NCBI GenBank assembly: GCA_947303085.1
Contig: CAMYXP010000002.1
Coordinates: forward strand, 62,001-126,000
Origin: an uncultured Bacteroidales bacterium
GTDB lineage: Bacteria > Bacteroidota > Bacteroidia > Bacteroidales > F082
DNA length: 64,000 nucleotides
Direction: 5' to 3'
The notes beneath the pieces were generated by a model. It did no database searches. It was not told the DNA's origin and saw nothing but the letters and a program-made list of their open reading frames with translations. Below, in pieces: positions 13,004-62,100 of this stretch; the stretch's first letter is position 1; every line of letters begins with the position of its first letter. Position numbers and translations under genes: made by a program.

Positions 13004-13046
13004 AAATTTTTGCACTGTCGTAATGCAATTTTGCGTATTTTTGCAG

Positions 13047-13147
13047 CGTAAAAAATCGCAGATCGGCTTTTGCATGGATTAACTGCATTTTTACGACTAA
13101 AAACGTGTAGATCGGCTTATGCATGGATTAACTACACGCTTTTTTTA
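13047..13147 (+). ncRNA. Candidate small RNA: two tandem hairpins with near-identical 21-nt loops and terminal T-run
   Basis: -7-like TATTTTTG at 13036-13043; stems CGTAAAAA..GCAG/CTGC.TTTTTACG and CGTGTAG/CTACACG; loops ATCGGCTT[T/A]TGCATGGATTAA; ends CTTTTTTT. Confidence 0.5.
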
Positions 13148-13664
13148 TATACTCCAGGCTGTATTGGACGTTTCGACCATCGCTTTTCTTACCTATCACC
13201 ACTTCAATCGTGAAATTCTTGTAATCTTCCGTTTTACTATTGAATGTATATCTCAGTTTTATCAGCTCAACATAGCGGTTTTTCTTCTGATTACCGTCTT
13301 TAATGTCAAAACTCCTGTAATTCTCATCAAATGGTTTGGCATATTTCAAAACATCGGGTAATTTAAGCACTGCATAAGTCGTTTGCCAATATCGTGTAGC
13401 GTTATTTGATGCTTTCTGAAAGCTTTCCTTCCAAATTATATAGATATTTTCATCAAGAAAATCATTTTTTATGAAGTTATTGCCGTTTAATTTTGACAAC
13501 AAAGCCTTGTAAGCGTCTTTAATTATCTTACGTTTTTCACCACGAATCTCTTTAATAGGATTTGTTGGAATTCTAAACCATAAATTTGTCCCTTGCAAAT
13601 TTGTTTCGATAAAATCAGGTATCTGTGTCATATTCGTAAAAGATTTATAATAATAAAGCGCCAA
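13128..13664 (-). CDS. Hypothetical protein
   Basis: 178-aa ORF; alternative start at 13631 (MTQIPDFIE); no recognised family. Confidence 0.55.
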   Translation of the reverse strand: MALYYYKSFTNMTQIPDFIETNLQGTNLWFRIPTNPIKEIRGEKRKIIKDAYKALLSKLNGNNFIKNDFLDENIYIIWKESFQKASNNATRYWQTTYAVLKLPDVLKYAKPFDENYRSFDIKDGNQKKNRYVELIKLRYTFNSKTEDYKNFTIEVVIGKKSDGRNVQYSLEYIKKACS

Positions 13665-13836
13665 ATATACGACCCTTCAAACGAATTAGTCGTACGAAAA
13701 ACGACTAAGTTTTCAACATCGTTCTAAATAATTGTATTTCAGCCATTTACAAACTGTTTTTGGGAGATTTAATGCTTTTTTAAATGTTAATAAATTTTAA
13801 CATTTGCACTTAACTCATTGAATATAAGTCACATAT

Positions 13837-14050: not shown

Positions 14051-14689
14051 ATGGGAAAAATCAGAAAAGGAGTCCTCGGGGGCTTTTCAGGCAAGGTTGG
14101 AACGGTTATCGGTTCCTCATGGAATGGCATCAGCTATATGCGCAGTCTTCCTCAGCATTTCAACGACGCTCGCACGCCGCGGCAGCTTCAGCAACGGGCG
14201 AAATTCAACAAGGCGATGGAGTTTTTGACACCGATTAAAGATTACATTCGTGTCGGTTATAAGACCTATGCTGTAAAGAAGTCGGCTTTCAACGCGGCGG
14301 TTTCGTATGTTGTTAAAAACGCTGTCGGCGGCAGTTATCCTGACGTTGAGATAAATTATTCGCGAGTACTTGTGTCACGTGGCGATTTGACACCGCCGAA
14401 AGATGTCGTTGCCACAATTTCAGAACATTGTGTGACAATAACTTGGACCGATAACAGCGCGGAAGGCTCAGCCAATGCCACCGATTTGTCGATGCCGTTG
14501 GCTTATAATGTTTCAAAAAGCCAGGCAATATTTGAAATCGCAGCCTCCACAAGGTCGAGCAAATCAGTCGCTTTACCCCTTCCCTCCGACTGGATTGGCG
14601 ACACCATTCACCTCTATCTTGGCTTCATCTCTGAGGACGGCATGGAAGTTGCGAATTCGGTTTATTTTGGGAGTGAGATAATGACTTGA
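14051..14689 (+). CDS. DUF6266 family protein
   Basis: MGKIRKGVLGGFSGKVGTVIGSSWNGISYMRSLP...RTPRQLQQRAKF. Confidence 0.85.
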   Translation: MGKIRKGVLGGFSGKVGTVIGSSWNGISYMRSLPQHFNDARTPRQLQQRAKFNKAMEFLTPIKDYIRVGYKTYAVKKSAFNAAVSYVVKNAVGGSYPDVEINYSRVLVSRGDLTPPKDVVATISEHCVTITWTDNSAEGSANATDLSMPLAYNVSKSQAIFEIAASTRSSKSVALPLPSDWIGDTIHLYLGFISEDGMEVANSVYFGSEIMT

Positions 14690-14784: not shown

Positions 14785-15696
14785 ATGATAGTCGATAAAA
14801 TAAAACGCTACGTCTGGCTGCTCGATACCATCTATCGTGCCGGCGAATCAGGCATCACATTCGATGAAATCAACGAGAAATGGCAACGCTACGACCTTCT
14901 TTCAGATGGCGAGCGTTACCCGAAGCGCACATTCGAGCAACACAAAGAAGAAATCCAGAACACCTTCAACGTCGAGATCTGCTGCGACCGCAAAACCAAT
15001 CGTTATTACATAAATGACCGTGAAGAATTACGAAATCAGAACCTCGTGTTGCGTTGGCTCATCAACACCTTCAATCTCAACAACATCATCGGCCAAAGCA
15101 AAAGCCTGAAAGACCGCATCGGTCTCGAAGACATCCCTGCAAGTCAAGACACGCTAATCGACATCATCGATCTAATGAACAACAGCTGCACTTTCGATAT
15201 GGAATATCAGAAATTTTATTCCGATGAAAAGAAGCTGTACAAAAACATGGAGCCCTACGGAGTCCAAATCTTCCAGCGTCGCTGGTATGTGCTGGCTCGC
15301 AATCCCGAAAACGACACGCTCCACACCTTTGCTCTCGACCGCATCACCAGCCTGCAGAAAAACAGCATCACCTTCCGCATGCCGTCCGATTTCTCCATCA
15401 ACGATTTCTTCAGCGGCTGCTATGGCATCATCAAAGATGAAACCCCAATCCAGCGAGTGGTACTGAAGGCAAACCATTTCCAAGCCCAGTACTTGAAAAC
15501 CTTGCCACTTCATCATTCTCAGAAAATTGTCTCAGACGATGCCGACTACACAGTCTTTTCATACTATATCTGCCCAACCCTCGATTTCAAACAGAAAGTC
15601 CATTCATACATGAGCAACATCGAAGTCCTCGAGCCAGCCTCATTCCGCAAAGAGATTAAGGAAGAAATCGAACTTATGAGAAAAATTTATAAATAA
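14785..15696 (+). CDS. WYL domain-containing transcriptional regulator
   Basis: N-terminal HTH-like region, YGVQIFQRRWYVLARNPENDTLHTFALDRI WYL core. Confidence 0.85.
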   Translation: MIVDKIKRYVWLLDTIYRAGESGITFDEINEKWQRYDLLSDGERYPKRTFEQHKEEIQNTFNVEICCDRKTNRYYINDREELRNQNLVLRWLINTFNLNNIIGQSKSLKDRIGLEDIPASQDTLIDIIDLMNNSCTFDMEYQKFYSDEKKLYKNMEPYGVQIFQRRWYVLARNPENDTLHTFALDRITSLQKNSITFRMPSDFSINDFFSGCYGIIKDETPIQRVVLKANHFQAQYLKTLPLHHSQKIVSDDADYTVFSYYICPTLDFKQKVHSYMSNIEVLEPASFRKEIKEEIELMRKIYK

Positions 15697-15760: not shown

Positions 15761-16900
15761 ATGAATTATAACGAATTACAAAATTGGCTGGATAATTTGA
15801 AAAAAATCCCAGTGCGACCGCCAAAAAAACGAACGTTGATGGATATCACAGGTATCAAACATCATGAAAATTTGTGGTCAGATATCTACCAATTCTTCTT
15901 CACAATAAATGAAGAACACCTGTTGGGCGATTTATTTATTCGAAGTTTGGAATCACTTATTGGCATAAAGCCTGGATATCTTGAATCGTTTTCTGTTACA
16001 AGAGAATTCTCTGTCAATGAGAAACGAATCGATTTGTTACTTTGTGATAATAGAAACGGTCGAGCCATTATCATTGAGAACAAAGTCAACCATATCTTAA
16101 ACAATGATTTAAACCTGTATTATACCAAAGTCCAAGATAAAGGCTATTCTGATGTTATTGTTATAGTTCTTGGCCTACAGAGATATAATCTAAAACTATA
16201 TAAAAGAGCAAATAAAATCCCAAGTGATAAACTTTTTAGCATAACACATCAGGATTTAATGGTAGAAATCGGTAAAGTATTGCCGGAATACAAAAAAGAT
16301 GCCAATCTTCAACATCTTTATTTGCTGCAGGAATTTTCACAAAACATCACAAACAAAACAAATGACATGAATACTGACGAAATAAACTTCTATTTTAAAG
16401 ATGATAATCGGAAGAAAATCAATCAATTGTCTGAAATCAAAAGGCATGTTATTGAATATATATCTGACTCATTAGAGAACAAAGAGATTCTCAAACCTCT
16501 TCTTCGTAAATATAATCTAGCTCTTGATGTGGATAAATGTAAAAACAACGAATACATTTATTTCCCATATAAAGGATATGATGGACACATCATGATTACT
16601 TTGGTATATGACCGCTTGTGGAATTTCGATAAAAACGGTAGCAGGATACAAGCAATATTGGAAATTCAAGGCGATATGATTGATTGGGTTGAAAAAAATG
16701 AAAGCAACAAATCCATGGAAGGCTTAAAGAAATATCAAAAATTTTGGCATTACAGCAGTTGTGATATTCCGTTTAGCCTTGATGAATTAACCAGCAATTT
16801 TCAAGAAAACCTTTGTAAGAAATTGTCAGATGAGACCATATGTCCAATCTACACAATAGGCTTGGAAATAATTGAAAAACACAAGCTTACTCAAAAATAG
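15761..16900 (+). CDS. PD-(D/E)XK nuclease superfamily protein (PDDEXK_4-like)
   Basis: RIDLLLCDNRNGRAIIIENKVNHILNNDLNLYYTKVQDKGYSDVIVIVL matches the D-xn-ExK core. Confidence 0.8.
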   Translation: MNYNELQNWLDNLKKIPVRPPKKRTLMDITGIKHHENLWSDIYQFFFTINEEHLLGDLFIRSLESLIGIKPGYLESFSVTREFSVNEKRIDLLLCDNRNGRAIIIENKVNHILNNDLNLYYTKVQDKGYSDVIVIVLGLQRYNLKLYKRANKIPSDKLFSITHQDLMVEIGKVLPEYKKDANLQHLYLLQEFSQNITNKTNDMNTDEINFYFKDDNRKKINQLSEIKRHVIEYISDSLENKEILKPLLRKYNLALDVDKCKNNEYIYFPYKGYDGHIMITLVYDRLWNFDKNGSRIQAILEIQGDMIDWVEKNESNKSMEGLKKYQKFWHYSSCDIPFSLDELTSNFQENLCKKLSDETICPIYTIGLEIIEKHKLTQK

Positions 16901-61499: not shown

Positions 61500-62100
61500 C
61501 ATTTTCCCGACATCGTATCTTCCTGGCATTCAATATGTTGCGCTGTTTTTAAAAAATGAGGCGCCTCGCATCGAATTGTTCGAGACGTATCAGAAACAGT
61601 CGTGCCGCACCCGCTGTAACGTAATGACAGCCAACGGTTTACAAACATTGACAGTTCCTATCGTCAAAACCAACGGCAACCATACCCTAACGAAAGACAT
61701 CGCCATAAGCTATCGTGAGCCTTGGCAACAGATTCACCAACGCTGTCTGGAGGCTGCCTATCGCAAAACACCGTTTTTCGACTACTATTTCCCTTATCTT
61801 GAAAAAGTTTTCACAACAAGATTTGAAAAACTCATCGACTTGAACGAGTTTTGTCTGAAATTTATTCTTAAAACATTGAAAATCAATAAGGAAATAGTTT
61901 ACACCGAAGATTTTACTCCTATTTCCGATTCGGAAGATTATAGAATAAAACTATCGAAATGGTCGCCTGAAACGACTGATTTTCCTAAATATTACCAAGT
62001 TTTCGACGATCGCCAGCCATTCATCTCAAATCTGTCAGTAATAGATTTGATCTTCAACGAAGGACCGGAAGCGGTTAATTACCTGGATACGCTATTCTGA
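61492..62100 (+). CDS. WbqC-like family protein (GTG start)
   Basis: SYLPGIQYVALFLKNEAPRIELFETYQKQSCRTRCNVMTANGLQTLTVPI; GTG at 61492 overlaps the thioredoxin 3' end. Confidence 0.85.
   Translation: MNNIFPTSYLPGIQYVALFLKNEAPRIELFETYQKQSCRTRCNVMTANGLQTLTVPIVKTNGNHTLTKDIAISYREPWQQIHQRCLEAAYRKTPFFDYYFPYLEKVFTTRFEKLIDLNEFCLKFILKTLKINKEIVYTEDFTPISDSEDYRIKLSKWSPETTDFPKYYQVFDDRQPFISNLSVIDLIFNEGPEAVNYLDTLF

Follow-up and report, generated by a model that had tools for sequence, protein, structure and literature searches.

Hairpin RNA Genes Paired with LPD3-Like Proteins in Uncultured Bacteroidales: a Candidate Type III-Like Toxin-Antitoxin Unit

Introduction

In the ToxIN, CptIN, and TenpIN families of toxin-antitoxin (TA) systems, a tandem-repeat RNA is encoded together with a single protein gene, the RNA repeats and the protein co-evolve, and the number of repeats varies (PMC5086642). 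These features are shared by the RNA-protein pair that we describe here from an uncultured member of the Bacteroidales, which consists of a short hairpin RNA gene and a gene for a protein related to the LPD3 domain (the LPD3 unit). The layout differs: the described families use one promoter, with the RNA upstream on the same strand and a terminator ahead of the toxin gene (PMC5086642), whereas the LPD3 unit has separate promoters and an RNA on the opposite strand, convergent with the protein gene or, rarely, divergent from it. In addition, the known families have identical repeats of one specificity, a ToxN-type endoribonuclease, and a pseudoknotted RNA, in contrast to the strings of apparently differing specificities, the LPD3 fold, and the nested hairpins of the LPD3 unit (for which nested pairs alone were modeled).

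The closest working analogue is AbiF/RCd22 of Clostridioides difficile, where a noncoding RNA with two motifs neutralizes a toxic protein by direct binding, both in cis and in trans (PMC12373285). The likeness lies in the two copies of a structured motif within a noncoding RNA; AbiF belongs to the Abi_2/AbiD/F family, to which the protein studied here has no Pfam match. In AvcID, an RNA antitoxin of ∼170 to 300 nt inhibits a deoxycytidylate deaminase toxin (PMC10511110); AvcID resembles the LPD3 unit in setting an RNA antitoxin against a protein toxin outside the ToxN families, and its toxin is unrelated to LPD3. The LPD3 domain (PF18798) is known from the literature solely as a component, without an established function, of large proteins of phages and conjugative elements; Iyer et al. 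2017 assigned it no function and reported no RNA partner (PMC5512222), whereas the unit described here has one.

Results

The twin-hairpin RNA gene

The window, by which we mean the whole 64,000-nucleotide stretch of DNA that was analyzed (positions 62,001 to 126,000 of contig CAMYXP010000002.1, assembly GCA_947303085.1), contains a predicted RNA gene with two successive hairpins (Table 1). Their cores, ATCGGCTTTTGCATGGATTAA (13062-13082) and ATCGGCTTATGCATGGATTAA (13111-13131), are mismatched at 1 of 21 positions, and AUCGGCUUNNGCAUGGAUUAA is common to both, set on covarying stems. At up to three mismatches, these are the only two core matches in the window (0.01 expected by chance), and the whole 2.3-Mb genome has the same two sites and no further copy. 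A REP-like dispersed repeat is ruled out, the genome's only close copies being these two hairpins. The RNA start was placed ∼7 nt past the -7 box, which matches the Bacteroidota -7 consensus TAnnTTTG (PMC7366714), and the end was placed at the T-run.

Table 1. Features of the LPD3 unit in the window
Feature	Position	Strand	Basis or remark
-7 promoter box of RNA gene, TATTTTTG	13036..13043	+	Exact TAnnTTTG
Predicted RNA gene, ∼97 nt, twin type A module	13050..13146	+	Both ends inferred; no transcript data
Hairpin 1	13058..13086	+	GCAG/CTGC stem (13058-13061/13083-13086), core ATCGGCTTTTGCATGGATTAA
Hairpin 2	13104..13138	+	CGTGTAG/CTACACG stem (13104-13110/13132-13138), core ATCGGCTTATGCATGGATTAA
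7-T run, RNA terminator together with hairpin 2	13140..13146	+	Sequence; kept in relatives
Partner gene, 167 aa, LPD3-like predicted toxin	13128..13631	-	Homologues adjoin RNA in almost all loci
-7 box of partner gene, TATATTTG	13662..13669 (read 13669-13662)	-	Sequence; just upstream of start

The plus strand folds with z scores of -3.0 (13045-13150) and -2.6 (13050-13147) relative to shuffled sequences. In the predicted structure, which was modeled with nested pairs only, the core is internally paired (AUC/GAU plus GC/GC) and capped by a variable UUNN tetraloop, with a G and AUG unpaired in an internal loop and UAA unpaired in a bulge. No Rfam family matches the RNA, and a minus-strand match to the RAGATH-1 hammerhead was rejected as a chance match (19.4 bits versus a threshold of 56.3).

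The first-pass annotation of this DNA had proposed a self-contained small RNA with a -7-like box followed by two near-identical loops on different closing stems. The box proved to be an exact consensus match, the loops agree at 20 of 21 positions, and the stems do differ, with outer-stem pairs that covary in relatives. The loop sequence is as had been described, but the term itself needs amending, as the loop is structured by inner pairs and a tetraloop. Similarly, the RNA does have its own promoter and terminator, but it is not free-standing, being the partner of the convergent gene.

Conservation of the RNA

Searching 174 genomes of the same family recovered tandem cores 46 to 49 nt apart in ∼20 genomes, all of the same genus, with never more than a few copies per genome. 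The promoter, hairpins, and U-tract are retained in the loci that we retrieved although their surroundings vary. Across 26 distinct hairpins, 94.2% of pairs are intact and double changes occur at 5 of 7 outer-stem pairs; the covariation score was 0.302, compared to 0.121 for shuffled alignments (0/500) and at most 0.097 with the strands slid against each other. The inner core pairs are nearly invariant, and covariation speaks neither for nor against them. This retention of promoter, both cores, covarying stems, and terminator in ∼20 relatives supports the small-RNA reading, transcription itself being unproven. The annotation had named an unconserved core, leaving a plain bidirectional terminator, as one outcome that would overturn it, and this is not what the homologous loci contain. 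In one locus (L039, genome G071), the two hairpin cores have undergone identical changes, ATGGATTAA to ATAGATTTA, a pattern that gene conversion or a change in the protein partner would be expected to produce.

In wider samples, profile matches were found in 10 of 395 sampled Bacteroidales genomes and, in a sample of 300 genomes from the phylum, in the source genome only. Nearly all named records are metagenome assemblies of rumen or gut Bacteroidales; the outlying labels are Dysgonamonadaceae, Tannerella, and Bacteroidia PG1894_40.

The convergent gene and its LPD3-like product

Homologues of the convergent gene adjoin the RNA in nearly all loci. In the window, the gene had been annotated as 13128-13664, from a TTG codon; the start is probably the ATG at 13631, which is conserved among homologues. 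Its stop codon (13128-13130) does lie inside hairpin 2, as had been noted. Only 36 of 87 homologues have a -7 box within 150 nt upstream of the protein start.

Two AlphaFold2 models are confident (pLDDT of 93.7, for the window protein, and 93.0). A Foldseek search matched large polyvalent phage proteins with probability 1.00 (E values from 2e-5 to 1e-4), and the names of two among the three best hits refer to polyvalent-protein-associated domains. Against the Pfam LPD3 profile (PF18798, cutoff of 27 bits), the window protein scores 20 bits, below the cutoff, and two homologues exceed it (L230, 32.3 bits; L054, 40.8 bits). On the strength of these models, the window protein shares its fold with LPD3-bearing phage proteins. 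It is a globular protein of 167 aa, not a short hydrophobic peptide of the kind found among type I TA toxins. Its conserved polar residues include S70, T85, Q115, and Y157 (numbered on the 167-aa protein).

Neither a PDB sequence search nor a PDB structure search with the two confident models gave a significant match, and the latter recovered no ToxN-type fold. The nearest named toxins, both below significance, were CdiA-CT EC3006 of E. coli 3006 and BrnT (E values of 0.077 and 1.2); as structural matches, these give no more than a hint toward an RNase, and a BECR fold is not established. The protein has no family in PADLOC or NCBIfam, no meaningful match in PHROGs, and no match to Abi_2 in Pfam, and our literature searches found no description of this RNA-LPD3 system or of an LPD3 function.

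Protein searching yielded ∼110 matches, which included fragments and came from 67 of the 174 genomes, all in the same genus. Paralogues with 35 to 45% identity have the same arrangement of a promoter, a hairpin RNA, and a U-tract running into the stop codon, but with a different RNA. All 88 near-full-length homologues have an adjacent hairpin RNA, nearly always convergent on the stop codon. We sorted these RNAs into types A to J by sequence profiles, which classified the RNA of 80 of the 88 proteins; by inspection, the remaining 8 have another RNA type or have the RNA on the other side of the gene (L044 and L046). A -7 box on the RNA strand lies within 260 nt of the stop codon in 84 of 87 genes, compared to 18 of 119 other open reading frames in the same loci (P = 2e-35), and is mostly located 15 to 19 nt ahead of the first module. 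The RNA of most types extends only to the stop codon and overlaps the gene little, and in three genomes (G087, G088, and G090; loci L044 to L046) the RNA and protein genes are divergent. Because of this divergent arrangement, the RNA is not necessarily antisense to the mRNA, and the partner is met in trans.

An order-wide search with PF18798 found short proteins in other families that consist of LPD3 alone, and all nine such solo loci that we inspected (L264, L266 to L271, L273, and L291) combine a -7 box with a structured RNA that reaches into the end of the gene. Three of them (L268, L270, and L271) contain twin repeats with near-identical loops, and L267, only partly seen, looks alike. None of five longer LPD3-bearing proteins inspected has such an RNA, and it is also missing from L227 (218 aa), the most divergent homologue. 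The RNA thus goes with the solo LPD3 protein, with the longer proteins serving as an internal control.

Several individual loci merit description. The source genome contains a second LPD3 unit (L230; G000:C2:25936-26340, minus strand) with a convergent type J RNA. Locus L052 (G119:C8:129000-136000) has four paralogous LPD3 genes in ∼5 kb, with RNA types E, A, J, and F. The type C RNA of L130 (G069:C9) lacks a -7 box of its own and lies directly behind a tRNA-like sequence, with which it may be cotranscribed.

RNA types, protein clades, and module strings

When the gene-proximal RNA types were mapped on a tree of the 88 proteins, 10 changes sufficed for 10 types (minimum possible, 9), whereas types shuffled 1,000 times on the same tree required a mean of 55.3 and at least 47. 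The additional change comes from L043, in which a type A hairpin is followed by a B-like one. Such agreement between type and clade could come from physical linkage alone, and it is for this reason that RNAs of mixed composition matter. Many of the RNAs comprise two to four modules in a row, with the last one matching the neighboring protein. Single-module units and homotypic strings (A-A, I-I, and I-I-I) occur, and in 21 loci, representing 15 arrangements (e.g., E-C-H-G and D-B-H-G), modules of a foreign type lie upstream in the transcript. The twin state that the annotation had proposed to look for in homologues therefore exists, but single, triple, and mixed strings do too.

The foreign upstream modules match other protein clades and are undecayed, with profile scores similar to those of the proximal modules. 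In a like-for-like control, upstream modules also clustered on the tree (7 changes; minimum, 6), because whole strings are inherited by close relatives; the telling fact is therefore the mismatch with the neighboring protein's clade, since in just 1 of 31 cases did an upstream foreign module agree with the type of the nearest relative itself. A common layout (outer stem, UUCC/GGUCC, GGUAAY/GGUAC, outer stem) seems to underlie modules C, E, F, G, and I, which raises the possibility of a single ancestor for the RNA types.

RNA genes without a protein, and genomic context

Searches for type D and C modules conducted independently of the protein identified a complete type D RNA gene with no protein remnant found beside it (L303, genome G118), at a site that appears equivalent to one in G093 where the protein gene follows, and an intact RNA next to a decayed protein gene (L320). 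Intact RNAs also adjoin broken protein genes in six further loci (L040, L041, L049, L050, L055, and L058), and within the clade we found no intact solo protein without an RNA. This pattern is no more than suggestive, because the protein is the longer mutational target.

In the window lineage and in four other genomes (G049, G062, G121, and G142), the unit directly follows a DUF4301 gene that is core to the genus; many close relatives have in its place a gene that we recognized by eye as rplT, and in G123, where the flank is similar, a WYL gene comes directly after it and the unit is absent. No neighboring gene recurs across all loci as a conserved third component. As a check for phage decoys, we searched viral contigs for exact matches to modules A, C, D, I, and J and found none; the protein likewise had no match in viral contigs, phages, or plasmids.

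Past the unit, at higher coordinates, the window encodes a DUF6266 protein of unknown function (14051-14689, +), a WYL-domain regulator (14785-15693, +), and, adjoining the latter, a PD-(D/E)XK nuclease-like protein (15761-16897, +) that matches the candidate defense family PDC-S26 (E value of 1.6e-38), placing the unit beside a possible defense locus. By eye, the DUF6266 gene is not seen at the corresponding site in G123.

Discussion

We observe here the pairing of the RNA with the LPD3 protein, the RNA's structure, the matching of RNA type to protein clade, the mixed strings, and the persistence of RNA without protein. It is likely, in our view, that these features reflect a type III-like TA unit in which the RNA neutralizes an LPD3 toxin by direct binding, with toxicity, binding, and expression all unproven. 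Such neutralization explains the RNA's own promoter, the type matching, the extra copies, the occurrence of the RNA on either side of the gene, and its outliving of the toxin. Also in its favor are the enrichment of -7 boxes on the RNA strand, the covariation of outer stems around a fixed core, the association of the RNA with solo but not longer LPD3 proteins, the presence or absence of the unit at the DUF4301 site, and the precedent of AbiF/RCd22. The RNA would be transcribed from its own promoter and, once folded into hairpin modules, would bind the convergent gene's LPD3 protein and hold it inactive, with two tandem modules per transcript providing surplus binding sites. Recognition would be type specific, residing in the inner core, while the outer stem could drift as long as pairing was kept. 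Should RNA synthesis stop, through phage takeover or loss of the unit, the RNA would decay and the protein would be freed. In the simplest history of the strings, a new protein with its module would displace the old one at the downstream end while the old module stayed in the transcript, and the resulting strings would neutralize several toxins. We regard the protein as a probable RNase or other enzyme acting on nucleic acids or nucleotides, an activity that is likewise unproven. Of the options that the first-pass annotation gave for the duplicated loops, that of a tandem protein-binding site has held up, with the product of the convergent gene as the likeliest ligand, in the absence of binding data.

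We propose more tentatively, as a possibility that we cannot yet favor outright, that this is a new system of LPD3 toxins and RNA antitoxins with strings of mixed specificity, in which only the last module serves the neighboring protein and the others confer immunity to toxins from elsewhere, either other units or mobile elements entering the cell.

Several points count against the neutralization of an LPD3 toxin. There are no transcript, toxicity, or binding data, so RNA expression, RNA-protein binding, toxicity, and toxin release are inferred only, and no known toxin is a significant structural match. Furthermore, part of hairpin 2 lies over the final codons and stop of the gene, and its conservation is to that extent coding in origin.

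Unlikely, yet not to be discounted, is an activating ribonucleoprotein in which the RNA is a cofactor or guide of the LPD3 protein, in defense or processing, and mixed strings widen its range of targets. The strict matching of RNA type to protein clade suits a cofactor as well as an inhibitor, but intact RNA genes remain where the protein has been deleted or has decayed (L303 and L320), whereas a cofactor without its enzyme should decay, and the strings hold modules of foreign type. Distinctly improbable is a type I-like antisense mechanism, whereby the convergent RNA would pair with the 3' end of the mRNA and block expression of the protein: the overlap at the stop codon, found in the window and most loci, is what such a mechanism would use, but it is slight in most types and absent from the three genomes with divergent genes, and antisense pairing needs neither outer-stem covariation nor the retention of foreign modules. 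We give very little credence to a small regulatory RNA that acts on many mRNAs and has nothing in common with the adjacent gene beyond a terminator region; the single-stranded bulges could serve as seeds, and a free-standing RNA gene does exist (L303), but the RNA type tracks the clade of the neighboring protein, and the RNAs found at this position beside solo LPD3 genes in distant families are unrelated. A simple bidirectional terminator can hardly be maintained at all, despite a hairpin and T-run between convergent genes and a minus strand that also folds well, since a promoter precedes the hairpins, the core is conserved and duplicated, and mixed strings and divergent copies exist.

Returning to direct neutralization of an LPD3 toxin, the unit works, on this inference, like a type III system but stands outside ToxIN, CptIN, and TenpIN, from which it differs in layout and fold. 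To our knowledge, protein-directed RNA antitoxins have so far been described for a small number of protein folds only, and LPD3 would add a further, apparently unrelated family. With at least 10 RNA types matched to protein clades, a code of RNA-protein recognition becomes directly testable. In polymorphic toxin systems, arrays of orphan immunity genes allow a cell to keep antidotes to toxins that it does not carry; those antidotes are separate protein genes, whereas in the LPD3 unit they would be RNA modules on one short transcript. If the more tentative reading is correct, the mixed strings are the RNA counterpart of such arrays, and they would be the first natural multispecific RNA antitoxins that we know of. 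It would also supply a first function for LPD3, a domain found in large and possibly injected proteins of phages and conjugative elements, and the RNA-paired family suggests a function for this domain that can be tested.
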